Below are positions 18,526 through 40,970 of a DNA stretch of 64,000 bases, piece by piece. Below the pieces are notes generated by a model. The model had not been told where the DNA came from, did no database searches, and saw only the letters and a program-made list of their open reading frames with translations. Origin of the DNA: Pseudoduganella namucuonensis (GTDB lineage: Bacteria; Pseudomonadota; Gammaproteobacteria; Burkholderiales; Burkholderiaceae_D); NCBI RefSeq assembly GCF_900116645.1, contig NZ_FPBO01000010.1:1-64000 (forward strand). The letters run 5' to 3'. How positions within the stretch are numbered: the first letter of the stretch is position 1; the number at the start of each line of letters is the position of its first letter. The translations under genes were made by a program, and so were the position numbers.

Positions 18526-19227
18526 TCAAATCCGGTCGCTTTCCTTGCGCACCACGCGGCCGATGATGATGCAGTCGTTGCCGCGGCAGACCTTGCGGTG
18601 GTATTTGCGCTGGTCCGGATTGTCCGACGTGAGCCACCACTGGCCGGCGTCGCGCGACATGCGCTTGACCACCGGCTCGCCCTCGTAGTTGACGGCGAAC
18701 ACGGCGCCGTCCACCGGCTTGTTGTCGGCGGTGTTGATGATGACCAGGTCGTCCTCGTACAGCGAGGGCTCCATGCTCTCGCCGCGCACCTTCACGCCGA
18801 TCAGCCGCTCGGGTATGTAGCCGTTGCGGTCGGCCCAGTGGCGCGGCACGCTGACGGTGCTGCCGTCGTAGGTTTCCGGTTCCACCGCGAAGCCGCTGAT
18901 GCCGGCCGACAGGCGCAGCCTGACCTTCTGGATCTGGTAAAAGCGCGTGTCGTCCTCCGGCGCGACCACCACTTGCGAGAACGACGCGGGCGCCGCCGCC
19001 GCCGCGCCGCGCTCGCGCTGGCCGATGCCCTCGTGCAGCCACTCGAAGGTGACGTTGCAGGCGCTCGCCAGTTGCACCAGCGTGTGCGCCTCCGGCCCCT
19101 TCTTGCCGACACCGTTGAGGATGCGATTGATGGTGGGTTGCGGCACGCCGGAGGCGCGCGCGAGCGCGCTCTGCGATTCGAAACCCGCTGCTTTCATGGC
19201 TGAGTCCAGCCGGCTAGAGATGTCCAT
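18526..19227 (-). CDS. S24 (LexA/CI-type) self-cleaving repressor, PrtR-like
   Basis: The 233-residue repressor has an N-terminal Cro/CI helix-turn-helix (about 16-42, SALARASGVPQPTINRIL) and a C-terminal S24 protease domain with catalytic S151 (VRGESMEPSL) and K188 (VVKRMS), 37 residues apart as in LexA. A candidate self-cleavage bond is A109-G110 (RLSAGISGF). RecA-stimulated cleavage would release the neighbouring genes after DNA damage. The start is ATG 19227, which coincides with the predicted transcription start, so the message is probably leaderless like that of lambda cI. It is divergent from the activator-like gene and is the master switch of the tailocin by analogy with PrtR. Confidence 0.9.
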   Translation of the reverse strand: MDISSRLDSAMKAAGFESQSALARASGVPQPTINRILNGVGKKGPEAHTLVQLASACNVTFEWLHEGIGQRERGAAAAAPASFSQVVVAPEDDTRFYQIQKVRLRLSAGISGFAVEPETYDGSTVSVPRHWADRNGYIPERLIGVKVRGESMEPSLYEDDLVIINTADNKPVDGAVFAVNYEGEPVVKRMSRDAGQWWLTSDNPDQRKYHRKVCRGNDCIIIGRVVRKESDRI

Positions 19228-19310
19228 ACACGTACTATACATCCTCGTATAGGACAAGGCAACTATTATCCATTCGGGTATTGATGATCTATTCATTCTC
19301 GTATATATTG
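19225..19310. promoter_or_regulatory. Operator/promoter switch region between repressor and activator-like gene
   Basis: Minus strand: -35 TTGCCT, 17-base spacer, -10 TATAGT (19234-19239), leading straight into the repressor ATG. Plus strand: -35 TTGATG (19281-19286), 17 bases, -10 TATATT (19304-19309). Two direct copies of ATYCTCGTATA (19241-19251, 19295-19305) and a weaker ATTCGGGTATT (19272-19282) overlap these elements and are candidate repressor operators. Confidence 0.65.
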
Positions 19311-19346
19311 TTCTTTATGGCAAGCACTTATCAGGAGGACAAGGGG

Positions 19347-20018
19347 ATGACTATGGCTATGGATATCGTAAGCAAGGATGTAAACCAGGACGCGATTTTC
19401 ACCAGCGCGGGACAGGCGGTGCACGTCGCCTACATGATCACGGGGCAGGACGCGCCGCAGGACGCGCCGCTGCGCAAGATGCTGATACGGATGCTGGAAA
19501 GCGCGCCGCACACCGGCAGCGAGCAGCGGGAGTGGCTGGAGCAGTTGCGCGGCGCGCCGTCGCGCCGCGTCAACTTCGCGGGACTGAGCCCGCTGGAGGT
19601 GCGCGCCCAGTGCGCGCTGATCGTACTGGCGGTGCGGAGCAAGCTGCCGTGCACGGAGATGTGGGCGCTGCAGGCGCGCTACGGCCACACCGACATGGAG
19701 GACGAGGACGGCGAGCGCCGCTTCGCCTTCTCGGCCGAGCGCATCGCCGCCATCAAGGGACTGTCCGACTGGCTGGCGCCGTCGTTCCCGGCGGTGCGGC
19801 CCTTCGCCGTGGACTGCATGATCGGCAAGCTGTACGCGAACCACAAGAAGATGGAGATCAGCTTCCGCGAACTAGCGGGCAATTTCGGCGGCAACCATAT
19901 GACGTACGCGCGCGCCTATGAAAAAATGCGCGGCCGCCTGCGCGAACTGGAGCAACTGGCGCTGGACCGCCTGGAGCCCTATCTGCGCGAGCAGGGCGTG
20001 GTCGGCGACTTTTTTTGA
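19347..20018 (+). CDS. Candidate tailocin transcription activator / antiterminator
   Basis: I do not recognise a named family. The 223-residue soluble protein ends in a helical region (about 160-215, ISFRELAGNFGGNHMTYARAYEKM) that could be a DNA-binding helix-turn-helix. The start at 19347 is fixed by AGGAGGACAAGGGG; an ATG 30 bases upstream lacks a site. It is transcribed away from the S24 repressor and directly towards the tail operon, the position held by prtN in pyocin loci. Its promoter carries the candidate repressor operators. Activation of the promoter at 20038 or readthrough of the two following terminators are both possible. Confidence 0.72.
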   Translation: MTMAMDIVSKDVNQDAIFTSAGQAVHVAYMITGQDAPQDAPLRKMLIRMLESAPHTGSEQREWLEQLRGAPSRRVNFAGLSPLEVRAQCALIVLAVRSKLPCTEMWALQARYGHTDMEDEDGERRFAFSAERIAAIKGLSDWLAPSFPAVRPFAVDCMIGKLYANHKKMEISFRELAGNFGGNHMTYARAYEKMRGRLRELEQLALDRLEPYLREQGVVGDFF

Positions 20019-20037
20019 GGAATGTTGAAAATAGTGC

Positions 20038-20067
20038 TTGACGGACTTGTTACAGCGCATATATGAT
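20038..20067 (+). promoter_or_regulatory. Promoter of the tail operon
   Basis: -35 TTGACG (20038-20043), 18-base spacer, -10 TATGAT (20062-20067). It lies 20 bases after the activator-like gene and is followed by two terminators before the first tail gene. Confidence 0.6.
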
Positions 20068-20096
20068 TCAGTCATCATCGCAGTAATTGCATCAAA

Positions 20097-20121
20097 AGCT
20101 CGCCTAGGCGGGCTTTTTTAT
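20097..20121 (+). terminator. Leader terminator 1 of the tail operon
   Basis: 8-bp stem AGCTCGCC (20097-20104) / GGCGGGCT (20107-20114) with one G-T pair and a T run. It lies 30 bases downstream of the promoter -10 and upstream of the first tail gene. Confidence 0.75.
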
Positions 20122-20123
20122 TG

Positions 20124-20158
20124 ACCCCGCCCGGTTTCGCCGCGCGGGGTTTTTTTTC
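20124..20158 (+). terminator. Leader terminator 2 of the tail operon
   Basis: Stem ACCCCGC (20124-20130) / GCGGGGT (20144-20150) followed by eight more T. It is only 20 bases upstream of the first tail gene start, directly after leader terminator 1. Confidence 0.8.
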
Positions 20159-20177
20159 GTCTCAGGAGTCCGCCGAC

Positions 20178-20714
20178 GTGACCGACAAACTACACAACCT
20201 GGAACAGCTGCACGAGGCGATGCGCGCCGGCCTCGCCGCCAAGCTGCCCGACGTGCCCACCGTGGCGCATCATCCGGCGGAGGGCGCCGCGCCGGCGCTG
20301 CCCGCCATCCTCATCGAACTGGCGCGGCTGGAACCCGGTCGCGACCCCGGCAGCGGCCAGGCCGGGCTGCGCGGCCGCTTCGAGGCCCGCATCGTGGCCG
20401 ACGCGGCGGCGCCCGGCGCCGGCGCGCTGGTGCGCGAACTGGCGGCCCGGCTGGCGCTGGCGATCAAGGACGAGAACTGGGGCGTGCCGGCCGGCATGGC
20501 GCAATTCGCGCAGGCCGCGCCGGACACGTTGGTCGAGGCCGGCCGGGTGGCCTGGCGGCTGGAATGGACCCAGGAATTCGAGCTGGGCGAACCGGCCTGG
20601 CCCTATCCGGACAGCGGCGGCGCCGCGCTGATGCTGGGCCTGGACCCGGACACGGGGCCAGGCCACGAGGCGCGCTACTGGCAGGCCGGCGCCGAGCCGG
20701 CCGCCGCGGCTTGA
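20178..20714 (+). CDS. Tail terminator/completion-like protein (Gp37/DUF1834-like)
   Basis: The 178-residue protein is the first gene after the leader terminators. It starts with GTG at 20178, preceded by CAGGAG. Its alpha/beta composition (LPAILIELARLEP, RFEARIVADAA, WRLEWTQEFELGE) resembles the Gp37/DUF1834 tail proteins of Mu- and P2-like phages, which cap the tube or help tail assembly. The assignment is by shape and gene order rather than a diagnostic motif. It ends 11 bases before the spike gene. Confidence 0.65.
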   Translation: MTDKLHNLEQLHEAMRAGLAAKLPDVPTVAHHPAEGAAPALPAILIELARLEPGRDPGSGQAGLRGRFEARIVADAAAPGAGALVRELAARLALAIKDENWGVPAGMAQFAQAAPDTLVEAGRVAWRLEWTQEFELGEPAWPYPDSGGAALMLGLDPDTGPGHEARYWQAGAEPAAAA

Positions 20715-20725
20715 AGGGGGCGGGT

Positions 20726-21280
20726 ATGGACTATCCCATAGCGGAACTGGACCGCCGCCTGGCCGCGCTGATACAGGCGGGCGTGGTGGCCGAGGTCGAC
20801 CACGCCTCCGCGCGCTGCCGCGTGCGGGTGGGCGAGTGGGTGTCGGCGCTGCTGCCCTGGCTCAGCCTGGGCGCCGGCGAGGCGCGCCACTGGCGCCCGC
20901 CGTCGGTGGGCGAGCAGGCCTTGCTGGTCTCGCCGTCCGGCGAACCGGCCGCCGGCTTCGTGCTGCCGGGCTTCTACGCCGCGGGCCACGGCCAGGCCGG
21001 CGACCGGCGCGCCAAGGCCGTGGCCTGGCGCATGCCGGACGGCTGCCTGCTGGAGTACGACTGGGAGGCCGGCGCGCTGAGGGCCACGGGCTGCGAGACG
21101 GTCAGCGTGGAGGCCAGCGGCGAGATCACGCTCAAATGCGCGTCGCTGCTGGTGGACGCGCCGCGGGTCAGCTTCAAGGGCGATGTCAGCATCGCAGGTA
21201 ACGTCAAGGCCGGCGGCGACGTCGACGCCGCCGGCGCCGTCATGGATGGCGGCGGCAACAGCAACCACCACGTGCATTAA
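20726..21280 (+). CDS. Baseplate spike protein, gpV-like
   Basis: The 184-residue protein has an N-terminal OB-fold region (about 20-95, VDHASARCRVRVGEW, SLGAGEARHWRPPSVGEQALL) and a repetitive beta-helix (about 125-175, alternating VSVEASGEITLKCAS, VSIAGNVKAGGDV). It ends in NHHVH, matching the HxH metal-binding apex of P2 gpV spikes. The trimer would form the membrane-piercing needle at the tip of the tube. The ATG at 20726 follows GGGGGCGGG. Confidence 0.88.
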   Translation: MDYPIAELDRRLAALIQAGVVAEVDHASARCRVRVGEWVSALLPWLSLGAGEARHWRPPSVGEQALLVSPSGEPAAGFVLPGFYAAGHGQAGDRRAKAVAWRMPDGCLLEYDWEAGALRATGCETVSVEASGEITLKCASLLVDAPRVSFKGDVSIAGNVKAGGDVDAAGAVMDGGGNSNHHVH

Positions 21281-21300
21281 CAACGCTTCATCCCCAACCA

Positions 21301-21325: not shown

Positions 21326-21342
21326 ATTTCAAGGAGAAAAAC

Positions 21343-21537
21343 ATGGCGAAAGCCGCACCCAAAACCCCCATCGTGTTCCGCGACACCGCGTTCAAGAGCC
21401 GCGGCATCGTGCTGGCCGACGGCACCATGCACCGCGTGGTGCAAGGCCACATCACCGCCGCCAGTCCCGAACTGATCGCCCACCTGGACCGCCACGCCGA
21501 ATTCGAGCGCGTGCCGGTCGTGCGCGCGGCGGCCTGA
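21343..21537 (+). CDS. Small tail-cluster protein of unknown function
   Basis: This 64-residue protein has a strong ribosome binding site (AAGGAGAAAAAC) and lies between spike and W-like genes, two bases before the next ATG. It has no signal peptide or membrane segment. Sequence (IVFRDTAFKSRGIVLADGT, ASPELIAHLDRHAEF) suggests a small alpha/beta fold; similar small proteins sit in baseplate operons of other contractile tails. I cannot name a function. Confidence 0.7.
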   Translation: MAKAAPKTPIVFRDTAFKSRGIVLADGTMHRVVQGHITAASPELIAHLDRHAEFERVPVVRAAA

Positions 21538-21539
21538 CC

Positions 21540-21872
21540 ATGGCCATCGCCGGCATGGACAGGCAAACCGGCCAGCCCCTGGGCGGCGTGGCCCACCTGC
21601 TGCAGAGCGTGCGCGACATCCTGACCACGCCGCAGGGCAGCCGCCGCGAGCGGCCCGAGTACGGTTCGGACCTGCCGCGCATGGTGGACCTGCCGCTGAC
21701 GCCGGGCTGGAAGTCCTCGGTGCAGGCCGAGGTGGCGCGCGCGCTGGGCCGCTGGGAGCCGCGCCTGGAACTGCGCTCGGTGACGGTGGAGTCGGTGATC
21801 GACGGCAGCGTCACGCTGAAGCTGCGCGGCGAGTTCCTCGGCACCGCCATGATTATGGAAGTGAACACATGA
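21540..21872 (+). CDS. Baseplate wedge protein, gpW/gp25 family
   Basis: The 110-residue protein has the GPW/gp25 signature: DILTTPQGSRRERPEYGSDLP followed by a C-terminal strand-rich half (LELRSVTVESVIDGSVTLKLRGEF). In P2 and T4 it initiates sheath assembly on the baseplate. The ATG overlaps the spacing of the previous stop (TGACCATGG), and its 3' end overlaps gpJ by four bases (ATGA), so translation is coupled. Confidence 0.92.
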   Translation: MAIAGMDRQTGQPLGGVAHLLQSVRDILTTPQGSRRERPEYGSDLPRMVDLPLTPGWKSSVQAEVARALGRWEPRLELRSVTVESVIDGSVTLKLRGEFLGTAMIMEVNT

Positions 21873-22714
21873 GCATCATCGACCTCACACAACTGCCTCC
21901 GCCCGACGTGGTGGAGGCGCTCGATTTCGAGCGCATCTACCAGGACATGCTGTCCGGCTTCCGCGCCTCCATGGGCGAGGGCTGGAACGCGGCCCTGGAG
22001 TCGGACCCGGTGGTCAAGCTGCTGCAGCTGGCCGCCTACCGCGAACTGCAGGTGCGGGCCCGCGTCAACGACGCGGCGCGCGCCAACCTGATCGCCTTCG
22101 CCGAGGGCGGCGACCTGGATCACGCGGCGGCCTTTTACAACGTTGAACGGCTGCGCGACGAGGCCGGCCAGGAAGAGGACGACGAGCGCCTGCGCCTGCG
22201 CACGCAGCTGCGGGTGGCCGCGCTGGCGGCCAACGGCACGCCGGAACAGTACCGCCACGTGGCGCTGTCGGCCAGCCTGGAAGTGCGCGACGCGGGCATC
22301 ATGCCCTCGCCGCCGGGCAGCGTGGCGCTGGCGGTGTGGCCGCAATCGGGCGCCGACGCCGGCGCCGTGCTGGCCGACGTGCGGCGCGCCTTCGCGGCGG
22401 ACGACGCCAAGCCGCTGGGCGTGCCGCTGTCCGTGGCGCTGGCGCTGCCGCGGGCGGTGGACGTGACAGCCACCGTGTACCGCGAAAGCACGGCGCCGCC
22501 GGACCTGGTGGCGCGACTGCGGGAGGCGCTGCCGCCGCAGATCGCCGCGCACGCCAGGCTGGGGCGCGACGTGCCGGCGTCCTGGATCTCCAGCCGCCTG
22601 CACGCGCAGGGCGTGTCGCGCGTGCAGCTCGACAGCGGCGGCGTCGCGGTGGCGCCGAACGAGTACGCGGCGGCCGGCGCGATCCAGGTGCTGGACGGGG
22701 GTGTCGCATGGTAG
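21869..22714 (+). CDS. Baseplate wedge protein, gpJ family
   Basis: The 281-residue protein follows the gpJ pattern: N-terminal SIIDLTQLPPPDVVEALDFERIYQDML, then SDPVVKLLQLAAYRELQVRARVNDAARA and a beta-rich C-terminus. gpJ forms the wedge of the P2-type baseplate together with I and W. It overlaps both neighbours (ATGA at the start, ATGGTAG at the end). Confidence 0.93.
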   Translation: MSIIDLTQLPPPDVVEALDFERIYQDMLSGFRASMGEGWNAALESDPVVKLLQLAAYRELQVRARVNDAARANLIAFAEGGDLDHAAAFYNVERLRDEAGQEEDDERLRLRTQLRVAALAANGTPEQYRHVALSASLEVRDAGIMPSPPGSVALAVWPQSGADAGAVLADVRRAFAADDAKPLGVPLSVALALPRAVDVTATVYRESTAPPDLVARLREALPPQIAAHARLGRDVPASWISSRLHAQGVSRVQLDSGGVAVAPNEYAAAGAIQVLDGGVAW

Positions 22715-23940
22715 CGGCGGCGCTGGACGACGCGCCGGCGGACGCGGCGCGCCTGCTGCCATCGAACGGCACGCCGCTGGAGCGCGCGCTGGCGCGCGCC
22801 GCGTCGCGCGCCGCGCTCGACACGCTGGCCGACGCGCCGGCCGGCCTGCGCCACACCCGTCCGGCGGGCGTCGCGCCCTGGCAGGCGGCCGAGTGGCGGC
22901 TGGCCGAGTTCGCGCGCTATTTCGGCGGCACGGAGGAGCTGATCGCGCAGGGCCTGCCCTGGCTGCGGCAGCGCGGCAGCGCGGCGTCCGTCAAGCGGGC
23001 CTTGTCGTGGATAGGCTTCGACGCCGCCGTCGGCGAGGACGACCCCCATCTGCAGCTCGACCCCGGCGCGGCGGACGCCCCCGCGCGGCTGGCCGACATC
23101 CGCCACCTGGCGGAGGCCTCGCTGCCGGCGCACGTGCGGCTGTACCGGCTGTACCACGGCTACGACCTGCGGCGCGCCCGGTTGTCCGGCGCGACGGCGA
23201 TGGACGCGGCCATGCTGTCCGACGATTCGGGCGTGTGGCGGGACGGCGTCAAGCTGTCCTTCGGCAGCGTGCACCGGGCCGGCGTGGACGCGGCGGCGGG
23301 CCGGCGCATCGCGCTGGGCCGCACCGACGGCCGGCTGGACCGCCTCTACATCGAGGACCAGTCGCGCCTGTCGGTGTCGCCGTACGACGTGGCGCCGGTG
23401 CTGAACCACCGCATCCTGGCGGGCCAGCTGATCACGGTCAGCAATCCGCGCCCGCTGGAGAACCCGGATTCGATCTCGCGGCGGCGCAACATCCGGCGCG
23501 CCAACATCGCGCTGTCCGACAGCGACGAGATCGGCGCCATCAACGCCGTGTTCCAGCGCGACTACTGGCACCAGCCGCCGGAGGTCATGCGCCTGTCGGC
23601 CGCGCCCCTGTCCGCCTACGACGGCCGCATCGAGCGGCGCCCGGTGGACGAGATCAGCACGCTGTACGCGGGCGCGCTGTCGTTCTCCGACGTGGGCGGC
23701 GCGCTGGCCTCGTTCGCGGTGGTGGAGGTGCGCTCGATCGGCGCGGTTCCGACCAACCAGCCGACGGCGCAGCCGCGGGTGGGCGTGGAGTTCGTGCGGC
23801 CGTCGCTGAGCCGCTTCGGCGCGGTACTGAATCCGGCCCCCGCCATGTGGGCCTTCGAAGGCGCCGGCCCCTGGTCGCAGGACGCGGCCACCGGCTGGGA
23901 AGAAGCAACACCGTGGGGCTCCGGCCTGCGGCAAACATGA
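22708..23940 (+). CDS. Baseplate/tail protein gpI family, long form
   Basis: At 410 residues it is about twice the length of P2 gpI. The first 200 residues match the family (LLPSNGTPLERALARAASRAALDTL, ARYFGGTEELIAQGLPWLRQRGSAASVKRALSWIG). The C-terminal half (about 200-410) is a beta-rich extension not present in P2, perhaps an attachment platform for the unusual fibre proteins that follow. It overlaps gpJ by seven bases. Confidence 0.85.
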   Translation: MVAAALDDAPADAARLLPSNGTPLERALARAASRAALDTLADAPAGLRHTRPAGVAPWQAAEWRLAEFARYFGGTEELIAQGLPWLRQRGSAASVKRALSWIGFDAAVGEDDPHLQLDPGAADAPARLADIRHLAEASLPAHVRLYRLYHGYDLRRARLSGATAMDAAMLSDDSGVWRDGVKLSFGSVHRAGVDAAAGRRIALGRTDGRLDRLYIEDQSRLSVSPYDVAPVLNHRILAGQLITVSNPRPLENPDSISRRRNIRRANIALSDSDEIGAINAVFQRDYWHQPPEVMRLSAAPLSAYDGRIERRPVDEISTLYAGALSFSDVGGALASFAVVEVRSIGAVPTNQPTAQPRVGVEFVRPSLSRFGAVLNPAPAMWAFEGAGPWSQDAATGWEEATPWGSGLRQT

Positions 23941-23966
23941 ACCTGATTTTTCACAAGGAGTTTTGA

Positions 23967-24449
23967 ATGGCGATATTGACTTCCTCGGGTCGCGCGGCCG
24001 TCGCCGCGTCGATCAAGGCCATGCCCCTGCACCTGGCGTGGGGCGCGGGCCTGCCCTCGTGGGACGCGACCCCCGAACCCGAACCGGTGCTGGCCACCGC
24101 GCTGCAAAGCGAAATCGGCCGCCGCGAACTGACGCAGGCGCTGTTCTGCGTGCCGGACGCGAACGGCGAGGTGATCGTGCCGACCGGCCGCTTCTCGATC
24201 AGCAACGAGCCGACCAACAACCTGTACCTGCGCTTCAACTTCGACTTCGCCGACGCGGCCTCGTCGGACATCCGCGAGGTGGGCGTGTTCGTCGGCACCG
24301 TCGTCAAGAGCGGCCTGCCGCCGGGCCAGAAGTACTTCACGCTGGCCGAGCTGCAGCAGCACGGCCAGCTGCTGGCGCTGGAGCGCCTGCCCAAGTTCAG
24401 CCGCAACGCGGCGGTGCGGCAGACGTTCGAATTCGTGATCACGTTCTAA
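23967..24449 (+). CDS. Tail-associated protein of unknown function (160 aa)
   Basis: The ATG follows AAGGAGTTTTGA. The 160-residue sequence is soluble and beta-rich (LPLHLAWGAGLPSWD near the start, TNNLYLRFNFDFADA, REVGVFVGTV) with no membrane segment. It lies between gpI and a DUF4815-like protein, where P2 would have the fibre gene H, so a baseplate-fibre adaptor is plausible. I do not recognise a family with certainty. Confidence 0.7.
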   Translation: MAILTSSGRAAVAASIKAMPLHLAWGAGLPSWDATPEPEPVLATALQSEIGRRELTQALFCVPDANGEVIVPTGRFSISNEPTNNLYLRFNFDFADAASSDIREVGVFVGTVVKSGLPPGQKYFTLAELQQHGQLLALERLPKFSRNAAVRQTFEFVITF

Positions 24450-24458: not shown

Positions 24459-26408
24459 ATGGCTGAAAATCTGTTACACCATTACGACCGCCACGACCCG
24501 GCGCGCAACTACGAGAAGCACCTGTTCCGCGCCGGCTACGTGCTGCAATCGGCGGAGCTGAACGAGATCCAGAGCGCCTCGCTGCAGCGCCTGAAGACCG
24601 TGGCCGACGCGCTGTTCAAGGACGGCGACATCATCCGCGACGCGCAGATCAACGTGAACCAGGCCACCGGCGTCACCAAGTGCGGCGCCGGCGCGGTCTA
24701 CCTGCGCGGCGCGGTGCGCGGCGTGGCGGCCAGCCAGGTCGCCATCCCGGTGGACAAGACCGTCTCCATCGGCATCTACCTGGTGGAGCGCGTGGTCACC
24801 GAGCTGCAGGACCCGGCGCTGCGCGACCCGGCCTCCGAGGTGCGCAACTACCAGGAGCCGGGCGCCGGCCGCCTGGAGGTGTCGACCGCGTGGGGCTGGC
24901 AGGCGGCGGGCCAGACCGACGGCAAGGTGGGCGAGTTCTATCCGGTGTACGCGGCCGACATGGGCGTGCTGCGCTCGAAGTCCACGCCGCCGCAGCTCGA
25001 TTCGCTGTCGCAGGCCATCGCCCGCTACGACCGCGATTCCACCGGCGGCGACTACGTCGTCAACGGCCTGAAGGTGACCATGCTGCCGGACCTGAACGGC
25101 GTGCAGCAGTACAGCGCCGACGCCGGCTCGGCGCGCGTGAACGGCTTCGCGGTCGAGATCCCGGCCTCGCGCCGGCTGCCGTACAGCGCCGCGCCGGACA
25201 TCAAGTTCATCGATTCCGAACCGTGGCTGTCGACCACCATCGGCGCGCAGCGCGTCACCTTCGACCGCACGCCGGTGCAGAACATCACGCAGGTGCGCGT
25301 CACGGCCGAGAAAAGCGCCGAGATCGTGCACGGTTCCTTCCTCGGCTCGCAGGACGCGCTGCCGAACAGCTCCATCGTCGAGATCGTGGAGGTGAAGCAG
25401 GGCGGCACCACCTACGCGCAAGGCGTGGACTACAAGCTGACCGGCCAGAAGATCGACTGGAGCCTGGACGGCGCCGAACCGTCCATCGGCTCGACCTACA
25501 CCGTCAAGTTCCGCCACATCGCCTCGGTCTCGCCGACGGCGGTGGACGAAACCGGCTACACGGTGACCGGCGCCGTGGTGGGCACGCTGATACAGACCTC
25601 GTACAACGTCAAGTTGCCGCGGGTGGACCGCCTGTGCCTGACGCAGGAGGGCGTGTTCGAATGGGTGCGCGGCACCTCGACCGACTTCGATCCCGTGCCG
25701 CCGCCGGTGCCCAACCAGTTCCTGCCGCTGGCGCTGGTGCGCCAGACCTGGTCGTCCGACCGCGGCCTGCAGAACGACGGCCTGCGCGTGGTGCCGATGA
25801 AGGACCTGGAGGAGATCAATTCCCGGCTGGACCTGATCACCGACATGATCGCCCAGCAGCGCCTGACATCGGACGCCAACGCCCGCGACGGCGCGGCCAA
25901 GAAGGGCATGTTCGTCGATCCCTTCCTGAACGACAACCTGCGCGACGCGGGCATCGCGCAGACGGCCGCCATCGTGCGCGGCGAGTTGATGCTGCCGATC
26001 TCCGCCACCTTCCTCCGTCCAAGCGCGGACGTGACCGCGCCGCTGGTGTTGAACGGCGCCCCGACCACGGTGTTCCAGCAGGGCGCGATGACGGGCTCGA
26101 TGCTGATCAATCCATACCAGGCGTTCGAACCGATTCCCGCCACCGTGCGCCTCGATCCGCCGGCGGACCGCTTCACCGTGACCAACACCTCCTGGACCAG
26201 CGCCGCGACCGAAGTGATGTTCACCGGCGGCGGCCTGCTAACGCAGACGCTGGTCAACACGACGACGCAGGTGGTGTCGAGCAGCACGCGGGCGCTGGAA
26301 TACCTGCGGCCGATCGAGGTCGCCTTCCAGATCGACGGCATGGCGGCCGGCGAGACGCTGACATCGTTCACCTTCGACGGCGTGACCGTCACCCCAGTCG
26401 CAGTTTAA
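24459..26408 (+). CDS. DUF4815-like structural tail protein
   Basis: The 649-residue protein opens with a segment I associate with DUF4815 phage proteins (HYDRHDPARNYEKHLFRAG, then QSAELNEIQSASLQRLK) and continues as a long beta-rich chain with no signal peptide. Such proteins accompany the fibre module of some contractile tails, but the role is not established. It probably connects the baseplate to the fibre. It is 9 bases after the previous gene and 12 before the next. Confidence 0.72.
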   Translation: MAENLLHHYDRHDPARNYEKHLFRAGYVLQSAELNEIQSASLQRLKTVADALFKDGDIIRDAQINVNQATGVTKCGAGAVYLRGAVRGVAASQVAIPVDKTVSIGIYLVERVVTELQDPALRDPASEVRNYQEPGAGRLEVSTAWGWQAAGQTDGKVGEFYPVYAADMGVLRSKSTPPQLDSLSQAIARYDRDSTGGDYVVNGLKVTMLPDLNGVQQYSADAGSARVNGFAVEIPASRRLPYSAAPDIKFIDSEPWLSTTIGAQRVTFDRTPVQNITQVRVTAEKSAEIVHGSFLGSQDALPNSSIVEIVEVKQGGTTYAQGVDYKLTGQKIDWSLDGAEPSIGSTYTVKFRHIASVSPTAVDETGYTVTGAVVGTLIQTSYNVKLPRVDRLCLTQEGVFEWVRGTSTDFDPVPPPVPNQFLPLALVRQTWSSDRGLQNDGLRVVPMKDLEEINSRLDLITDMIAQQRLTSDANARDGAAKKGMFVDPFLNDNLRDAGIAQTAAIVRGELMLPISATFLRPSADVTAPLVLNGAPTTVFQQGAMTGSMLINPYQAFEPIPATVRLDPPADRFTVTNTSWTSAATEVMFTGGGLLTQTLVNTTTQVVSSSTRALEYLRPIEVAFQIDGMAAGETLTSFTFDGVTVTPVAV

Positions 26409-34960: not shown

Positions 34961-35051
34961 GTACGGATTCCAGCCGTCCGAGATCGATCGCATGACGCTG
35001 GACGACATGCTGTGGTGGCTGGATGACCAGGCCAAGGAAGGAGGTGCTTGA
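34905..35051 (+). CDS. Tail assembly chaperone extension, gpE' (frameshift product)
   Basis: A second frame, +1 relative to gpE, is open from 34860 to 35051 and encodes LRLSPRQVRGLATRLAREYG then FQPSEIDRMTLDDMLWWLDD, the conserved GpE-family C-terminus. The first ATG in this frame (34905) has no ribosome binding site, favouring fusion by frameshift over separate initiation. A plausible +1 site is TTT-C at 34889-34892 (Phe tRNA can re-pair TTT to TTC); a -2 slip would also reach this frame. The stop overlaps the tape-measure ATG. Confidence 0.7.
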   Translation: MLRLSPRQVRGLATRLAREYGFQPSEIDRMTLDDMLWWLDDQAKEGGA

Positions 35052-37459
35052 TGGCGAACGAAGAGCGGGACGGCGAAGCCCTGGAGCGGGGCAAGGCCCT
35101 GGGCGACGCGGGCAAGAGCGTCGGCGCGGCGCTGATGAAGACGGTGGGCGCGTCGGCCGAATATCAATCCATCCTGCGCGACATCGCGAAGCCGGCGGGG
35201 CCGGAAGACAAGGTGGATGAAAAGAAGGTCGCCACGCGGTTGGCGGACATGTCCGCCGAAAACGGCATGGACGCGGTGGTGCTGGGCAAGGCGGTCCGGC
35301 GGATGATGGACGACGGCGTCGAGCGGCAGGCGGCGCTGGCGGCGGCGCCGGTGCTGGCCCGCTTCTCGGTGGGCCAGGGCGCCGACGCCGACGACAGCGC
35401 GAAGCTGGTGAGCGCCCTGAGCCGGAAAGCGGGCATCCCGGTGGAGCGGATGGAGGCCGCGCTGGGCAGCGTGGCCAAGTTCGGCAACGACAACAACATC
35501 AGCCGCGCCGACATGGCCAAGGTGCTGCCGGGCATGTTGCGCGATCTGGAAAGCCTGGGCATCACCGGCATGGACGCGGTGCACCAGGCCAACGCGGTGC
35601 TGAAGGCGCAGTTGGGCGACAGCGCCGATCCGAAGGAGATCGCCAAGCACTTCCATGCGCAGGCGGTGAAGCTGCGCGGCAACGGCAGCGAGGCGGACAT
35701 CGCCAAGGGGGCGGCCACCGTCAGGAAGCTCGTGCCGGTGGGGCTGGTCGAGCAAGCCGAGCCGGACTACCTCGAGCGGGACGTGCGGCATGAGCGGGAC
35801 AAGTCCGAAACGAAATGGAGCGAGGCGGGCCGGGCGGGACAGGGCGTGTCGATCGCCATCGGCGACGCCTTGCGTCCGGCCAGCGATTTCGCCGCCGAGC
35901 AGCTGACCGCGCTGGGCAACGGCGCGGCCTCGCTCGCGAGGGCGTTTCCGGCGGCGGTGGTGGCGCTCACTGGCGCGCTGGCGGTGGGCGCGACGGTGGC
36001 CGCCGCGAGGACGCTGCCCAAGGCCGGCAAGGCCGCATGGAATACCGCCAAGACTTATCTGCTGGGGAAGGGCGGCGAGCCGGGCGCGGCGCCGGAGGCG
36101 GGAAGCGACGCGCCGGCGGGCGGTGTGCAGCGTGTGTTCGTCACCAACTGGCGCGATGAGGGACAGCATGACGGGCCCGGCGGAACCGGCGACGGCGCCG
36201 GTGAGCGACGCGGACGCGGCAGGCGCGGCGGACCAGGCGGACCAGGCGGACGAGGCGGACGAGGCGGCAGGAGCGGGAACGGGAACGGGAACGGGAACGG
36301 GAACGGCGGGAGTGGCGGGAGTGGCGGAAGCGGAGGAAGCGGAGGAAGCGGCGGGCCCGGGCGCGGTGGCGGTCCCGCGGCCGGGCAGGGCGGCGCGGGC
36401 AGGCCGGGCTTGCTGCGCCGCGGCTGGTCGGCGATCCGCGATTCCGGCGCCGTCGGCCGGGTGGCGTCGGTGGGCAGGGCGGTCGCGCCAGCGGCGCTCG
36501 GCCTGGCGCGGACAGCGGCCGGGATAGGCCTGGCTTATCAGGGCCTGAGTCTCATCAAGGCGCTGGCCGGCGGTACGCCGACGGAGCGGATGCGTGAATT
36601 CGGCGGTCTGCTGGCCGCGGGGGCCGGAGCCGCCGTCGGGCGGGTCGGCGGGGCGCTGGCCGTGCGCGCCGTTGGTGGCGCGCTCGCGGCGCGCGTCGTT
36701 GGCGGCGGCTTGGGGGCGCTGCTCGGGCCCGCCGGCATGTACGCGGGGATGACCGCCGCCCATTTCCTCTGGGCGAAGTATGGGGACACGGCGGTCGAAT
36801 GGTTCAACAAGCCCCGCCCGCAAGTCCAGGCGGCCACGCCCGCCCCGGTCCCGGCGGGGTTCGGCAAGGCGCCCAACGCCTTTCAGAATCTGGCCGCGCA
36901 ACATGGCGCGGCGGCCGGAAGCGGCGTCCCCGGTCTGCTGCCCGGCCTGCTGACGGCGGCGCCACCCGCGTTGACGCCGTTGCTGTCATCGCAGCCGGTG
37001 GCGTGGGCGCCGGCCGTTGCGGCAGTCAGCTTTTCCACGACGCGGCGTCCGGCCCATGCGCCTTTGTCGACAACGCCGGACAACGCCGCGGAGCTGACGG
37101 CCGCCGCCGATGCCGCGGCGCGCGGCGCGACGGCCGGCACGGCGGCAGCTGTGGCCGCGGCGGCGAAGGCGGCAACGGCGACAACGGCGGCGGCGGCTAC
37201 CGCGGCTGCGGCCGTGGCGCCGCCGGGCGTCGCCGCGAGCGCGCGGCGCGCCGGCCCGGGGGCACCGGCGCCCGCGCCGGTTCCCCAGCAATTCAATTTC
37301 AAACCCAACGTGATGATCACCGTGCAGGGCGACGCGCGCGATCCGCTCGGGATCGCCAACGAACTAATGCCGCACCTGCGGCTGCTGTTCGAGCAATTCC
37401 AGGCGCAGCAGCGGCGCGACGCCATGCACGATCCAGTAACGAGTTTAGGAGGTTCTTGA
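35051..37459 (+). CDS. Tail tape measure protein with glycine-rich linker
   Basis: The 802-residue protein sits in the tape-measure position after gpE/E' and sets tube length. Residues 1-260 are helical (repeats of PVLARFSVGQGADADDS type) and residues about 290-335 are hydrophobic. Residues 370-450 are a low-complexity linker of Gly, Ser, Arg and Asn (GNGNGNGNG, GGSGGSGGSGG). A second hydrophobic helical region (about 465-590) follows, then an Ala/Pro-rich stretch and a C-terminal helix (LRLLFEQFQAQQRRDAM). It starts with ATG 35051 behind AAGGAGG; the stop overlaps gpU. Confidence 0.9.
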   Translation: MANEERDGEALERGKALGDAGKSVGAALMKTVGASAEYQSILRDIAKPAGPEDKVDEKKVATRLADMSAENGMDAVVLGKAVRRMMDDGVERQAALAAAPVLARFSVGQGADADDSAKLVSALSRKAGIPVERMEAALGSVAKFGNDNNISRADMAKVLPGMLRDLESLGITGMDAVHQANAVLKAQLGDSADPKEIAKHFHAQAVKLRGNGSEADIAKGAATVRKLVPVGLVEQAEPDYLERDVRHERDKSETKWSEAGRAGQGVSIAIGDALRPASDFAAEQLTALGNGAASLARAFPAAVVALTGALAVGATVAAARTLPKAGKAAWNTAKTYLLGKGGEPGAAPEAGSDAPAGGVQRVFVTNWRDEGQHDGPGGTGDGAGERRGRGRRGGPGGPGGRGGRGGRSGNGNGNGNGNGGSGGSGGSGGSGGSGGPGRGGGPAAGQGGAGRPGLLRRGWSAIRDSGAVGRVASVGRAVAPAALGLARTAAGIGLAYQGLSLIKALAGGTPTERMREFGGLLAAGAGAAVGRVGGALAVRAVGGALAARVVGGGLGALLGPAGMYAGMTAAHFLWAKYGDTAVEWFNKPRPQVQAATPAPVPAGFGKAPNAFQNLAAQHGAAAGSGVPGLLPGLLTAAPPALTPLLSSQPVAWAPAVAAVSFSTTRRPAHAPLSTTPDNAAELTAAADAAARGATAGTAAAVAAAAKAATATTAAAATAAAAVAPPGVAASARRAGPGAPAPAPVPQQFNFKPNVMITVQGDARDPLGIANELMPHLRLLFEQFQAQQRRDAMHDPVTSLGGS

Positions 37460-38373
37460 TGAGCATCACTTCATGGATCAGCCAAGCCACCGGCGAGGTG
37501 GCCCGCGCCGCCGAGCGCGTGAACAAGGCGGAGTCGGAACTGGCGCGGCGCGTCGAACGCCAGGCGGTCAAGCTCACGACGGCGGCGGACCAGGCCGTCG
37601 GCCATATCGAAAACGCGGCCAGGCTGGTGGCTTCCGCCGCCGGAACGGTGACCCGCGCGCTGCCTTTGCTGGAGGGCGACGTGGTGCGCCGCGGCATCGG
37701 CGTGATCGGCGCCGCCGCCGGCAAGCTGGCGGCCAGCCGCATCGAGGCGGTGCGGGGCGCGGCGGCCACGCTGCGGGGCGCCGTCGCCGGCCTGGAGCAA
37801 AAGGTGGGCGCGCTGGGCGGCGTGGGCGCGGCGGCGCAGGCGCCGCCCGTCGTGCCGTCGTCCACGCTCAAGACGGCGCCCACGGCGGCCGACACACCGG
37901 CCGCGGCGGCCGCCATGAAGCACCTGCTGGTGCTGTGCGCGGACGACGGCGCGCGCTACCACTTCGGCCTGTCGTCGTCGGCGTTCGACTCCTTGCGGCG
38001 GCAATCGACCTTCGGCATCGAAGGCGTGCCGCGGCTGGGCAGGCGGGACGCGACGCAGGCGGTGGGCCAGGGCTCGGAATCGCTGTCGCTGTCCGGCACG
38101 GTGTTCGTGTCGAAACTGGCGGCGCGGGAGGCGGCCGCGACGGGCCCGTACGCGGACCTGGAGCAGGACGTCGCCGAGCTGGACAAACTGCGCCGGATCG
38201 GCCTGGCCCTGCGGCCGCTGCTGCTGACCACCGGCTATGGTGACGTGCTGGGCCGCTGGTACATGGGCGCGCTGACCGAGGAGCAGGGCGGCCTGCGCGC
38301 GGGCGGCCACGCGAGGAAGCAAACCTTTACTTTGGAGTTCAAACGCTATGGCGATGATTATCAGAAGCGCTGA
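37459..38373 (+). CDS. Tail protein gpU with helical N-terminal extension
   Basis: The 304-residue protein is about twice P2 gpU. The C-terminal half (about 150-304; FGLSSSAFDSLRRQSTFGIEGVPRLGRRDATQ, LRPLLLTTGYGDVLGRWYMGAL) matches the gpU family, which finishes the tube end. The N-terminal 150 residues are amphipathic helix with an Ala/Val-rich segment, like part of a tape measure. It starts on the A of the previous TGA and overlaps gpX by 26 bases. Confidence 0.85.
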   Translation: MSITSWISQATGEVARAAERVNKAESELARRVERQAVKLTTAADQAVGHIENAARLVASAAGTVTRALPLLEGDVVRRGIGVIGAAAGKLAASRIEAVRGAAATLRGAVAGLEQKVGALGGVGAAAQAPPVVPSSTLKTAPTAADTPAAAAAMKHLLVLCADDGARYHFGLSSSAFDSLRRQSTFGIEGVPRLGRRDATQAVGQGSESLSLSGTVFVSKLAAREAAATGPYADLEQDVAELDKLRRIGLALRPLLLTTGYGDVLGRWYMGALTEEQGGLRAGGHARKQTFTLEFKRYGDDYQKR

Positions 38374-38554
38374 CGGCGACGTGCTGGACAGCCTGTGCCA
38401 CGCGCACTACGGCCGGCTGGCGGGGACGGTGGAGGCGGTGTACGCGGCCAATCCCGGCCTGGCGGCCAGGCCGCAGCCGTTCGCGGCGGGCGTGGTGATA
38501 CGCCTGCCGGACCTGGTCCCGCCGCGCGCCGACGTGGTGCGCCTATGGACTTGA
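38348..38554 (+). CDS. Tail protein X (LysM-like)
   Basis: The 68-residue protein has the gpX/LysM form: GDVLDSLCHAHYG near the N-terminus and VEAVYAANPGLAA followed by GVVIRLPDL. In P2 it acts at the tail tip. The start lies within the 3' end of gpU. Confidence 0.9.
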   Translation: MAMIIRSADGDVLDSLCHAHYGRLAGTVEAVYAANPGLAARPQPFAAGVVIRLPDLVPPRADVVRLWT

Positions 38555-38563
38555 GGAGCGGAC

Positions 38564-39595
38564 ATGCGCGCTGAATTCCAGGTGCTGGCCGACGGCAGCG
38601 ACATCTCGCCGCTGCTGCGAGACCGGCTGATCAGCATCCAGATCACCGACAAACCCGGCCTGGCGGCCGACACTTGCGAGATCCGCATCGACGACCGCGA
38701 CGGCAAGGTGGCGGTGCCGCCCAAGGGCGCCAGCCTGCGGGTGTCGCTGGGCTGGGCCGGCCGCGGCCTGTCGGCCATGGGCACCTTCAAGATCGACGAG
38801 GTCACGCTGGAGAGTTCGCCGATGACGCTGACGCTGCACGGCCGGAGCGCGGACTTGCGCAAGGGCGCCAAGTCGCAGCGCAGCGAGGGCTACGAGGCCA
38901 CCACGCTGGCGGCCATCGTCGGGCAGGTGGCGCGGCGCCAGGGCTGGAAGCCGGAGTGCCGGGTGGAGGCCGCGGTGCCGCGCGCTGACCAGATCAACGA
39001 GAGCGATCTGCATTTCATCACGCGGATGGCGCTCGCCCACGGCGCGACGGCGGCGGTGAAGGCGGGCCGGCTGCTGGTGCTGCCGCGCGGCGGCGGCAAG
39101 TCCGCCGGCGGCGCGGCCCTGCCGGTGACCACCCTGATGCCCTACATGCTGTCGCACTACCGCTTCACCTTCGCGGACCGGGCCAGCGTGGGGGCGGTGA
39201 AAACCGTGTCGCACGACGCCGCCACCGGCCGGCAGGCGGTGGCCGTGGCGGGCAACGCCGGCGGCGCGGCCGATGGCGCCGTGCTGATCGAGCGCCATGT
39301 GTGCGGCAGCCCGCAGGCCGCGCAGGCGTCGGCCTCGGCGCGGCTGGCGGCGCTGAACCGGGCCACGGCCAGCGGCGTGCTGACCATGTCCGGCCGCGCC
39401 GACATCGGCGCGGAGTGCAGGCTGGCGCTGGAAGACTTCAAGGCCGAGCTGAACGGCGTGTACCTGGTGGAGTCGGTGACCCACATCCACGACGGCAAGT
39501 CGTGGCGGATGCAGGTGGCCGTCAACGCCGACAACGGCGGCAAGACCGGCGCCGCGACAGGGAAAGGAAAGGAGGGACCCGCGCTGGTGGCCTGA
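38564..39595 (+). CDS. Baseplate hub protein gpD
   Basis: The 343-residue protein is the gpD (late control D) hub: DRLISIQITDKPGLAADTCE, VRIDDRDGKVAVP, GRSADLRKGAKSQRSEGYEATTLAAIVGQ and ESDLHFITRMALAHGA. It forms the central hub holding the spike. The name reflects P2 genetics, not a regulatory function. It is the last structural gene, followed by the lysis cassette. Confidence 0.93.
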   Translation: MRAEFQVLADGSDISPLLRDRLISIQITDKPGLAADTCEIRIDDRDGKVAVPPKGASLRVSLGWAGRGLSAMGTFKIDEVTLESSPMTLTLHGRSADLRKGAKSQRSEGYEATTLAAIVGQVARRQGWKPECRVEAAVPRADQINESDLHFITRMALAHGATAAVKAGRLLVLPRGGGKSAGGAALPVTTLMPYMLSHYRFTFADRASVGAVKTVSHDAATGRQAVAVAGNAGGAADGAVLIERHVCGSPQAAQASASARLAALNRATASGVLTMSGRADIGAECRLALEDFKAELNGVYLVESVTHIHDGKSWRMQVAVNADNGGKTGAATGKGKEGPALVA

Positions 39596-39613
39596 AAACC
39601 GGGCCCGCGCAAC

Positions 39614-39639
39614 GCCGCCCCCGGGCGGCATTCTTTTTT
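39614..39639 (+). terminator. Hairpin terminator between gpD and the lysis genes
   Basis: 7-bp stem GCCGCCC / GGGCGGC followed by ATTCTTTTTT. The next gene's ribosome binding site follows at once. Confidence 0.7.
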
Positions 39640-39652
39640 GAAAGGAGAGCAT

Positions 39653-40027
39653 ATGACAGAACCCGCAAGCTCGACCGCGTCGATCGCCATCGCCGCCGGC
39701 ACCATCACGCTGAGCGGTTCCGTGTTCGGCGTGCAGTACGACGCGCTGCTGGCCGGCTTTTTCGGCGGCCTGGTGTCGTTGGCCTACCTGCCGGCCATGT
39801 CGGCGCTGAAGGTCGCCAGCACGGTGGCCGGCTCGGCGCTGGTGGCCGGCTTCTTCGCGCCCGTCATCGCGGCCACTGCGCTGCACTATTTCCCCTGGCT
39901 GCTCAGCGTGGGCGACTTCATGCGCCTGGCCGGCGGCGCCGCACTGGGCATCGCGTCCCAGGTGCTGATCCCCGCCGCGCTGAAACGCCTGCGCGGCTTT
40001 ATCACCAAACAAGGAGACATCCCATGA
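39653..40027 (+). CDS. Holin-like membrane protein 1
   Basis: The 124-residue protein has three hydrophobic segments (about 10-30, 40-58, 62-85) and a basic tail (KRLRGFITKQGDIP), fitting a holin. It sits two genes before the lysozyme. ATG 39653 follows AAAGGAGAGC; the stop overlaps the next ATG (ATGA). Confidence 0.8.
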   Translation: MTEPASSTASIAIAAGTITLSGSVFGVQYDALLAGFFGGLVSLAYLPAMSALKVASTVAGSALVAGFFAPVIAATALHYFPWLLSVGDFMRLAGGAALGIASQVLIPAALKRLRGFITKQGDIP

Positions 40028-40497
40028 TACTTTCCCTGCTTTCCATGCTGGGCGGCGGCCTGCTGCGCCTGCTGCCCGAGCTGTTCACCATCCTCGGCAA
40101 GAAAACCGATTACGCGCACGAACTGGCGATGCTGGACCGCCAGTGCCAGCTGGAGCGGACGCGCGCGGCCGGCCGCCAGGCGCTGGCGGAATACCAGGGC
40201 GGCGTGGCCGAGACGCTGGCGCTGCTGGACGCGCAGCAGTCCGCGCTGCGCGGCCAGATGCGCCCGCTGGGCATGCGCTGGGTGGACGCGCTGAACTTCC
40301 TGGTGCGCCCGCTGGCCACGTATTACGTGCTGGCGCTGTACGGCCTGGCCAAGCTGGCGATGTACATGACGGCGACCGCTGCCGGCATTTCCGGCTGGGA
40401 CGCGATCCTGCGCATCTACGACGCGGAGGACCGCGCCATCCTGTCCGGCATCCTGGCGTTCTGGTTCGTCGGCCGCGTGTTCGACCGGCGCAAATGA
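40024..40497 (+). CDS. Holin-like membrane protein 2 (3-TM type)
   Basis: The 157-residue protein has an N-terminal hydrophobic stretch, a charged helical loop (about 30-85), two more hydrophobic segments (about 95-115 and 135-150) and a basic end. The segment NFLVRPLATYYVLALYGLAK resembles the three-TM holin family first described in gene-transfer agents. Whether both membrane proteins are needed for lysis, or one is an antiholin, cannot be told. Confidence 0.75.
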   Translation: MILSLLSMLGGGLLRLLPELFTILGKKTDYAHELAMLDRQCQLERTRAAGRQALAEYQGGVAETLALLDAQQSALRGQMRPLGMRWVDALNFLVRPLATYYVLALYGLAKLAMYMTATAAGISGWDAILRIYDAEDRAILSGILAFWFVGRVFDRRK

Positions 40498-40970
40498 CGA
40501 TGGCGGAGAACGATCATCCGGAGGCGCTGCTGGCCGCGCTGGCGCTGATACGCCGTTTCGAGGGCTGCCGCCTGCGCGCCTACCAGGACGTGGCGGGCGT
40601 CTGGACCATAGGCTGGGGCGAGACGCTGGACGTGCGCCCCGGCATGGTGTGGACGCGGGGCGAGGCCGATGCGCGATTGCTGGCGCGCGTGGCCGAGTTC
40701 ATGCTGGCGGTGCTGCGGCGCTGTCCGGCGCTGCACCTGGAGCCGCCGCCGCGGCTGGCCGCGTGCACGTCGCTGGCGTACAACATCGGCGTCGGCGCGT
40801 TCGGGGCCAGCTCGGTTTGCCGCCGGCTCATGAACGGCGACGGCGCCGGCGCGGCCGACGGTTTCCTGCTGTGGAACAAGGCTGGCGGGCGCGTGGTGGC
40901 GGGACTGGCCCGCAGGCGCGAGGCGGAACGCGCGCTGTATCTGTCTTGCGACGACGCGCACATTGTTTAA
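40494..40970 (+). CDS. Endolysin, T4-type lysozyme (GH24)
   Basis: The 158-residue muramidase has the T4 triad E23-D32-T38 with exact T4 spacing (RRFEGCRLRAYQDVAGVWTIGWGE), and an SLAYNIGVGAFGASS block. No signal peptide or SAR segment is seen, so it needs a holin. It would release particles by lysing the producer. It overlaps the previous gene (ATGA) and is the last gene of the cluster; no spanin gene is visible. Confidence 0.9.
   Translation: MTMAENDHPEALLAALALIRRFEGCRLRAYQDVAGVWTIGWGETLDVRPGMVWTRGEADARLLARVAEFMLAVLRRCPALHLEPPPRLAACTSLAYNIGVGAFGASSVCRRLMNGDGAGAADGFLLWNKAGGRVVAGLARRREAERALYLSCDDAHIV

Follow-up and report, generated by a model that had tools for sequence, protein, structure and literature searches.

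The R-pyocins are the described systems closest to the locus reported here. In our comparisons they are represented by an 18.5-kb Pseudomonas aeruginosa record (OQ658366), which is an R-pyocin as read from its annotated content, and by the pyocin sheath PA0622, and they combine the gene order V-W-J-I-fibre-sheath-tube-E-tape measure-U-X-D-lysis with an absence of annotated head genes. A tailocin of Burkholderia cenocepacia, BceTMilo, has been described as related to phage KL3/P2 and as encoding an Ogr transcription factor, a fibre with its chaperone, and spanins (PMC5411513). For the enterocoliticin of Yersinia enterocolitica, the upstream region is annotated with a CI repressor and two "antitermination proteins Q", and its authors liken the arrangement to phage Mu and R-pyocins (PMC13030884). 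R-type tailocins are a known kind, and enterocoliticin, compared here by its description, is the nearest precedent, by annotation, for control of a tailocin by antitermination. Here we describe an element at positions 18526-40970 of a 64,000-nucleotide stretch of Pseudoduganella namucuonensis DNA (hereafter, the window; contig C21, 1-64000) within an 8.49-Mb genome of 103 contigs. Judged from its genes, the element is very probably a resident R-type tailocin, that is, an R-pyocin-type headless contractile tail that would be made by the cell, released by lysis and kill susceptible relatives.

Gene calls together with Pfam and PHROGs searches confirmed the element in exactly the interval proposed by the initial annotation, and its tail, regulator and lysis genes support the proposal of a complete contractile tailocin that brings control and lysis genes of its own. 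It consists of a repressor gene, a second regulator gene, 18 tail-operon genes and then the holin, unknown and lysozyme genes, in the order phrog_1072-gpV-small protein-gpW-gpJ-gpI-BW3TFN-DUF4815-phrog_5986-fibre-sheath-tube-E/E'-tape measure-gpU-gpX-gpD-holin-unknown-lysozyme. All of these genes other than the repressor gene lie on the forward strand, and the genes expected of a contractile tail (sheath, tube, baseplate, tape measure and spike) were all recognised. The operon opens with a phrog_1072 gene (20178-20714), 35% identical to its counterpart in the R-pyocin record, which is followed by genes for the gpV spike or baseplate assembly protein (20726-21280, PF04717), a small conserved protein (21343-21537, phrog_8063), the gpW/gp25 baseplate wedge (21540-21872, PF04965), the gpJ baseplate wedge (21869-22714, PF04865) and gpI (22708-23940, PF09684), the C-terminal part of which is long and variable. 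Beyond the fibre module lie the genes for the R-pyocin-type sheath (32841-34010, PF04984), the tube (34044-34547, PF04985), the tail assembly chaperone E (34619-34960, PF10109), the tape measure protein (35051-37459, PF10145 and phrog_794), gpU (37459-38373, PF06995), gpX (38348-38554, PF05489) and the gpD baseplate hub (38564-39595, PF05954). An E'-like open reading frame (ORF) overlaps E in another frame (34905-35051, phrog_8286) and has homologues in the R-pyocin record and in all eight relatives that carry the element; its frame is +1 or -2 relative to E, which fits a programmed frameshift or a start of its own. The lysis genes that the initial annotation had claimed are represented by a lysozyme (endolysin) gene (40494-40970, PF00959, E value 1.8e-34) and by a putative holin gene (39653-40027) with a weak match to PF16931 (E value 0.004, below its cut-off) and to the holin family phrog_2359 (E value 2e-4). 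The gene between them (40024-40497, phrog_6637) encodes a small protein with hydrophobic stretches that perhaps belongs to the lysis set.

The initial annotation had read this gene order as that of the P2 tail. The order itself was verified by Pfam and PHROGs, and the tail proved to be of the R-pyocin type: the closest sheath in the phage collection was that of OQ658366, at 74% identity, and the same record aligned in the same order at 65% for the tube, 64% for gpW, 57% for E, 55% for gpX and 46% for gpV. Among solved structures, the best match of the sheath was PA0622 (3j9q, E value 1.6e-187). The element thus has the PA0622-type sheath and tube and the gene order of the R-pyocin subtype. Unlike R-pyocins, it carries a BW3TFN-DUF4815-phrog_5986-fibre module in the place of the fibre (H) and dedicated chaperone (G), it is equipped with an AlpA-type antiterminator and terminators rather than PrtR/PrtN control, and its repressor, holin and lysozyme gave no tblastn match in OQ658366. 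Compared by description, BceTMilo is likewise a betaproteobacterial tailocin related to P2 and R-pyocins that has a CI-like repressor and whose induction depends on RecA, whereas its Ogr factor, fibre with chaperone and spanins set it apart (PMC5411513); neither a separate fibre chaperone nor a spanin gene was recognised among the genes of the window. The R-pyocin-like locus OQ658366 was entered in the database as a "complete" phage genome, and one catalogued viral contig (IMGVR_UViG_2671180040_000002, locus L136) is a copy of the present tailocin, its sheath being identical. A sheath 74% identical was also seen on a contig labelled as a Phycisphaerae metagenome-assembled genome (L061), which is possibly misbinned.

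A complete P2-like prophage has head and packaging genes with its tail, and this combination was not found. As the initial annotation had stated, genes for head, packaging, integration or replication were recognised by Pfam and PHROGs neither within the element nor beside it. In the flanks, 81 ORFs were chosen by hand from both strands, nearly all those of at least 150 amino acids being included; of the 28 PHROG families obtained for them, the 25 displayed comprise no named family of head or packaging proteins (three were not displayed, most being undescribed). At an E value of 0.001, the whole genome gave no match to the five head families sought, PF05125 (P2 capsid), PF03237 (Terminase_6N), PF05876 (GpA_ATPase), PF03354 (TerL_ATPase) and PF04860 (Phage_portal), which in a positive control of 14 genomes were detected in one, six, three, three and four genomes, respectively. 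Capsid, portal or terminase genes adjacent to the element were thus looked for and not found, and no head genes were recognised at the same site in the eight same-genus relatives by tblastn order and ORF reading, with no head-like ORF noticed in the parts of these loci read by eye rather than by a hidden Markov model scan. A weak probe with the portal, terminase and capsid proteins of Acidovorax phage Alfacinha1, for which there was no positive control, gave no match in 160 sheath-related loci (80 kept as the best of 174 and 80 as the best of at least 575). PHROGs does attach the label "head closure" to the tube and "head and packaging" to some fibre and BW3TFN families; we take these proteins as tube, baseplate and fibre, since the Pfam families are Phage_tube and BW3TFN and the matches of the fibre coincide with its repeats.

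The control genes that had been proposed are present, as a repressor (18526-19227, reverse strand) and a second regulator (19347-20018), but the suggested PrtR/PrtN-like switch was not borne out by profile and fold comparisons, which point to a LexA/CI-type repressor and an AlpA-type regulator. The second regulator, which we assign as an AlpA-type (Q-like) transcription antiterminator, belongs to phrog_17923 (E value 7e-62) and matches no Pfam family at an E value of 0.01. A profile of 19 regulator homologues matched AlpA of P. aeruginosa (7xya) with an E value of 5.4e-8. We also obtained an AlphaFold model of the regulator from 36 sequences, with a mean predicted local distance difference test score (pLDDT) of 76. 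The model aligned with two AlpA structures at Z scores of 14.4 and 13.9 and root-mean-square deviations of 2.7-2.8 Å over 146-148 residues, the next row having a Z score of 4.8, and AlpA alone fell below an E value of 0.001 in Foldseek. Phage 21 Q, tried as a further fold relative, reached a VIA-align Z score of 4.7, the same level as unrelated helical rows, and was not used. By profile and model, the second regulator is an AlpA-type antiterminator, with read-through as its predicted activity. AlpA itself is a demonstrated antiterminator (PMC7969949, PMC9371919).

The DNA between the regulator gene and the tail operon has the layout of an AlpA- or Q-type target, with a spacer element and intrinsic terminators before the first gene. 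Reading of the sequence, alignment of the nine elements found in the genus and a promoter pattern scan together identified a late promoter, TTGACG-N18-TATGAT (20038-20067), whose spacer contains TGTTACAG (20048-20055) as a candidate antiterminator-binding element. In the initially transcribed region lies CATCAT (20073-20078; CATTCT in two relatives), a candidate -10-like sequence that, by its likeness to Q and AlpA promoters, may act as a pause site. It is followed by the intrinsic terminators T1 (20097-20119; hairpin of -10.1 kcal/mol and six T, stem visible in all nine elements) and T2 (20124-20157; hairpin of -19.6 kcal/mol and eight T, also in all nine). The promoter, the TGTTACAG element and the stems of T1 and T2 all align across the nine elements, as does a conserved stretch early in the transcribed region. 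Promoter-like sites numbered four, against a shuffle mean of 0.4, and the pattern of the late promoter matched once in the 8.49-Mb genome and not at all in the control, so that the tail operon is probably its sole target. Under a stricter terminator criterion, two terminators arose in none of the shuffled sequences, 300 per element, and one or more in 3-16 of 300. In one relative (G059, locus L047), an insertion of about 0.85 kb separates the regulator gene from the late promoter, and promoter and terminators still precede the tail operon.

This layout resembles that of the AlpR-AlpA-alpBCDE lysis system, in which a cleavable repressor governs an antiterminator acting at promoters with a spacer element and with terminators before the target operon (PMC7969949, PMC9371919). 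The published alp promoters carry their element between -35 and -10, with one terminator from 54 nucleotides past the alpB start site, and PA0807 is preceded by two terminators, the first of them 26 bp past the start site; the AlpA element is printed as GGGACG (PMC7969949, PMC9371919). Six promoters associated with homologues of our regulator contain TGGGACAG, close to that element. In contrast to the present locus, the targets named for AlpA are lysis genes and the PA0807-0829 locus, with no tail operon among them (PMC7969949, PMC9371919), and the AlpA sequence is only distantly similar to that of the window regulator. Control of the Caulobacter gene transfer agent by GafYZ is likewise a case of a domesticated phage structure that is partly switched on by antitermination, albeit in a gene transfer agent and with other proteins (PMC11150451).

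The association between regulator and promoter extends to viral contigs. For this comparison we took all regulator-homologue loci with enough DNA, which amounted to 77 of 80 (three were skipped). A promoter lay at most 160 nucleotides past the end of the homologue match in 69 of the 77 loci; in 61 its -35/-10 spacer contained a TGTTACAG-like element, and in 67 it was followed by a terminator. Counted from the start of TTGAC, the element began at a distance of 10 bases in 54 loci, nine in six and seven in one. When L263-L270, whose regulators are at least 75% identical and which were taken for tailocins, were set aside, the counts were 61, 53 and 59 of 69. Random windows in the same loci contained a promoter in 15 of 2730 cases, and neither the element nor a promoter followed by a terminator in any of the 2730; windows after other coding-like ORFs of these loci gave corresponding figures of 7, 0 and 0 of 972.

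Several observations nonetheless weigh against antitermination as the mode of control. The AlpA match covers only positions 76-208 of the 209-position profile at a modest E value, and the N-terminal third of the regulator model, whose mean pLDDT was 76, is poor. In G037 and G051, the run of T that belongs to T1 is interrupted, and the stricter terminator criterion recovered two terminators in six of the nine elements and one in the other three. Among the viral-contig loci, which are not independent and contain 55 distinct promoter sequences, the pattern missed the promoter in eight of 77 and the element in 16 of 77. Anchoring the search at the in-frame stop rather than at the match end reduced the promoter count to 45 of 76; in the remaining loci, the 3' end of the gene probably extends into the promoter. 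In addition, a generic terminator scan performed no better than chance (one site against a shuffle mean of 1.3). This last result would also be expected if the second regulator were an ordinary PrtN- or Ogr-like activator that recruits polymerase, the two hairpins being incidental, and the gene does occupy the place of PrtN in R-pyocins, by the repressor and before the tail genes. We consider such an activator improbable, given that the regulator has no Pfam match at an E value of 0.01, that profile and fold match a demonstrated antiterminator (PMC7969949, PMC9371919), and that the conserved feature is a -35/-10 promoter followed by terminators, which an activator would not need.

The genomic contexts of the homologues point in the same direction as the antiterminator assignment. 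Homologues of the regulator were found in 25 of 392 genomes of the family, namely the nine carriers, 15 others and the marginal case G015. No tailocin tail protein was matched at the 15 non-carrier loci, two of which span only 3.6 and 5 kb. In prophages of G232, G227, G218 and G030, the homologue is flanked on one side by a replication gene of the DUF5906 or VapE type and on the other by a terminase gene confirmed by Pfam, of the TerL type in two and of the GpA type in two; in prophages of G282 and G170, the same position between a replication-type gene and a terminase was read by eye, and Burkholderia phage BgManors32 carries its homologue upstream of a gene annotated as terminase. Homologues thus precede terminase genes in all seven non-tailocin phage contexts that were read, and the spot between replication genes and terminase is where phages keep their late-gene antiterminator. 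Among 155 sheath-related loci (L061-L215), L138 and L139, both of the present group, were the only ones in which the profile detected the regulator; the upstream reach of these loci is uneven, gpV being contained in 135 of the 151 loci outside the group. The homologues in G124, G206 and G169 and in viral contigs such as L318 and L322 match either as two blocks within a single open frame or across a longer region, which suggests that they carry an insertion of about 60-110 amino acids in the middle of the protein.

The repressor combines a helix-turn-helix domain (PF01381) with an S24 peptidase domain (PF00717, E value 1.4e-19) and belongs to phrog_4. Its LSAG, GESMEP and VVKR motifs are identical in all 11 aligned copies, and we take LSAG to be the putative cleavage site and GESMEP and VVKR to be the Ser/Lys active-site motifs. 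Operator-like repeats overlap both of the divergent promoter-like sites in the window. The inverted repeat O1, CTATAC-ATCCTC-GTATAG (19235-19252), covers the promoter-like site of the repressor gene and is only partly conserved in the alignment of nine elements; a second candidate operator, O2, lies at 19267-19281, and a third, O3 (19290-19305), overlaps the promoter-like site of the antiterminator gene, CATTCTCGTATATATTG being invariant here in all nine elements. One 17-base stretch is thus invariant, but the operator-like pattern as such occurs three times in the window and only zero to two times per relative, a further point on the side of doubt.

These features suggest the following mechanism. 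As indicated by its domains and the operator-like repeats, the repressor would shut both the promoter of its own gene and the one that serves the regulator next to it, and DNA damage would, as in other members of its family, lead to RecA-dependent self-cleavage. The freed gene at 19347-20018 would then supply the AlpA-type antiterminator, which would load at TGTTACAG in the late promoter and carry polymerase past T1 and T2, so that tail and lysis genes, laid out as one long operon, could be expressed as a single transcript. Tails would be built with a VrlC-type fibre network, with an exchangeable fibre selecting the target. By analogy with R-pyocins, holin and lysozyme would burst the producer, and the released tails would puncture their targets.

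The initial annotation was also borne out in its description of an unusual fibre module. This module consists of a BW3TFN baseplate wedge or tail fibre network component (23967-24449; PF25691, E value 4.7e-53), a DUF4815 (VrlC-like) baseplate or fibre network protein (24459-26408; PF16075, E value 1.7e-170, with matches to PDB 9euf and to phage records named "VrlC"), a phrog_5986 protein (26421-27629) that aligns with the C-terminal portion of phrog_877, a family of longer VrlC-type phage proteins, and a tail fibre of 1696 amino acids (27642-32732; phrog_27782 and others) with an N-terminal anchor, about three internal repeats and a low-GC C-terminal part. BW3TFN, DUF4815 and phrog_5986 are present in all nine elements, and among the 160 sheath-related loci they occur only in nine, L056-L060 and L136-L139, which represent this group or the window itself. 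R-pyocin fibre or chaperone gave no match in these nine loci, whereas R-pyocin-like fibres or chaperones were matched in 126 of the remaining 151; an ORF of 225 amino acids is present in the fibre slot of G044. DUF4815 proteins are known in VrlC-bearing phages, including Alfacinha1, Wolbachia phage WO and many others, and a relative of 1152 amino acids is found among solved structures. The DUF4815/VrlC proteins of Alfacinha1 and phage WO are 46% and 40% identical to that of the window, respectively, but these are phages, and their sheaths are only 36-40% identical to that of the element.

The slot between phrog_5986 and the sheath is hypervariable. Among G070, G040, G059 and G048, 0-53% of the slot aligns, against DNA identities of 93-97% in the sheath, V-W-J and lysis blocks, and a similar N-terminal stretch opens several of the slot fibres. 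In the window, the final 1.5 kb of the slot has a GC content of 0.48; in G070, the GC content of the slot is 0.37. Such variability over a constant core is, at the level of sequence, the pattern of an exchanged specificity module. The C-terminal 596 amino acids of the window fibre had no relative in phage records, nor in viral contigs other than the window's own entry; a model of this domain folded alone had a mean pLDDT of 35 and was not used.

A sheath at least 86% identical to that of the window was found in nine of 74 same-genus genomes, its own included. Five relatives named in the sheath scan of genome contigs were Massilia sp. Root418, Pseudoduganella rivuli, Rugamonas rubra, Pseudoduganella violacea and Massilia sp. 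BJB1822, so that the host probably belongs to this group of the Oxalobacteraceae. The flanks of the element in the window are ordinary chromosome, with a chemoreceptor gene to the left and genes for an alcohol dehydrogenase and a LysR regulator to the right, and a tRNA-Ser gene (8228-8317) lies in the left flank, apart from the element. The next gene on the right (g24, 41066-41593) is present in 72 of the 74 genomes and is a host gene, which places the right border within 40970-41066. Gene order is the same in the eight other carriers, all of which have g24, the dehydrogenase and the LysR gene to the right; two of them share the chemoreceptor on the left, and six have extra genes between the lysozyme gene and g24.

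A decaying prophage remnant devoid of present function would account for signs that the element has been lost in places. Fifteen non-carrier genomes, picked from those with better g24 matches, were examined at g24, matches above 30% identity and 35% coverage being displayed: two (G021 and G043) retain repressor and holin, one (G005) is empty, with chemoreceptor, g24 and dehydrogenase and no tailocin gene in between, and in 12 no tailocin gene was matched, the dehydrogenase not being beside g24 in 11 of these. Tape measure and gpU also diverge fast. Points against the tailocin reading itself are that the holin match is weak and that the ratio of nonsynonymous to synonymous substitution rates (dN/dS) for BW3TFN, DUF4815 and phrog_5986 is 0.96-1.12 against G044, values that we read as reflecting a different allele of the fibre module. 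Even so, we judge the remnant to be very improbable. When 21 genes of the window were compared with each of G044, G036 and G048, ORF lengths were similar for all but gpI, the tape measure and the DUF4815 gene of G044, and dN/dS was 0.11-0.20 for the sheath, 0.13-0.19 for the repressor and 0.15-0.27 for the antiterminator. Between G040 and G048, it was at most 0.13 in all 18 genes tested, a set that leaves aside gpI, E, the small g5 protein and the fibre. As estimated from these alignments, the core genes are under purifying selection; their order is kept in nine genomes, and fibres are exchanged over a core that is kept.

The DUF4815 frame of G044, at 1160 amino acids, is probably joined with phrog_5986. 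The tape measure, which contains a long glycine-rich stretch, is 35-37% identical to those of three relatives whose sheaths are 86-90% identical. In G021 (L375) and G043 (L376), an intact repressor gene and operator region are directly followed by an intact holin gene, and this pair may be a remnant or a minimal damage-triggered lysis pair; holin matches were found in 12 of the 74 genomes, namely the nine carriers, these two and the incomplete G055.

Extracellular contractile injection systems (eCISs) of the Afp/PVC type have several sheath genes, an AAA+ ATPase and an effector cargo. Sheath, spike and hub are common to such systems and to tailocins, and the window sheath weakly matches Afp and Pvc proteins, but the element has a single sheath gene that is by far closest to PA0622, a lysozyme and a putative holin, and no effector or ATPase match among its genes, so that delivery of a protein effector by an eCIS is extremely improbable. 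We give next to no weight to the notion of a tail-supply cassette for a co-resident phage or satellite with its own head, for which another baseplate J locus on contig C77 might speak, as the five capsid, terminase and portal families had no match in the genome and the element adjoins the same right-hand host genes in nine genomes. The J gene in question (G000, the genome of the window; L001) lies at 3493-3960 of the 32.8-kb contig C77. Contig C26 of the same genome contains two adjacent weak sheath-like matches in long frames (289713-290405 and 292535-292924; L028), possibly another contractile system, and similar neighbouring pairs were seen in G048, G052 and G069.

A literature search, which mostly did not extend to subscription journals, revealed, among the papers listed, no tailocin of the Massilia group, no AlpA-controlled tailocin and no combination of an R-pyocin tail with a VrlC fibre network and an AlpA-type switch. 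We put forward, tentatively and with rather more doubt than confidence, that AlpA-type antiterminators (phrog_17923) are a widespread phage late-gene switch that bacteria have co-opted more than once for altruistic lysis, in the AlpR-AlpA death of Pseudomonas and in the tailocin of the Massilia group, and that what is left of the tailocin in some relatives, a repressor-holin pair, could serve these cells as a minimal suicide module triggered by damage. The resident R-type tailocin described here would extend R-pyocin-type weapons to the Oxalobacteraceae, and it indicates that a tailocin can have its entire receptor-binding module exchanged for a VrlC/DUF4815 fibre network. It also offers a simple candidate antitermination switch for tailocin production and, for phage family phrog_17923, so far listed as of "unknown function", a likely function together with a predicted binding element.

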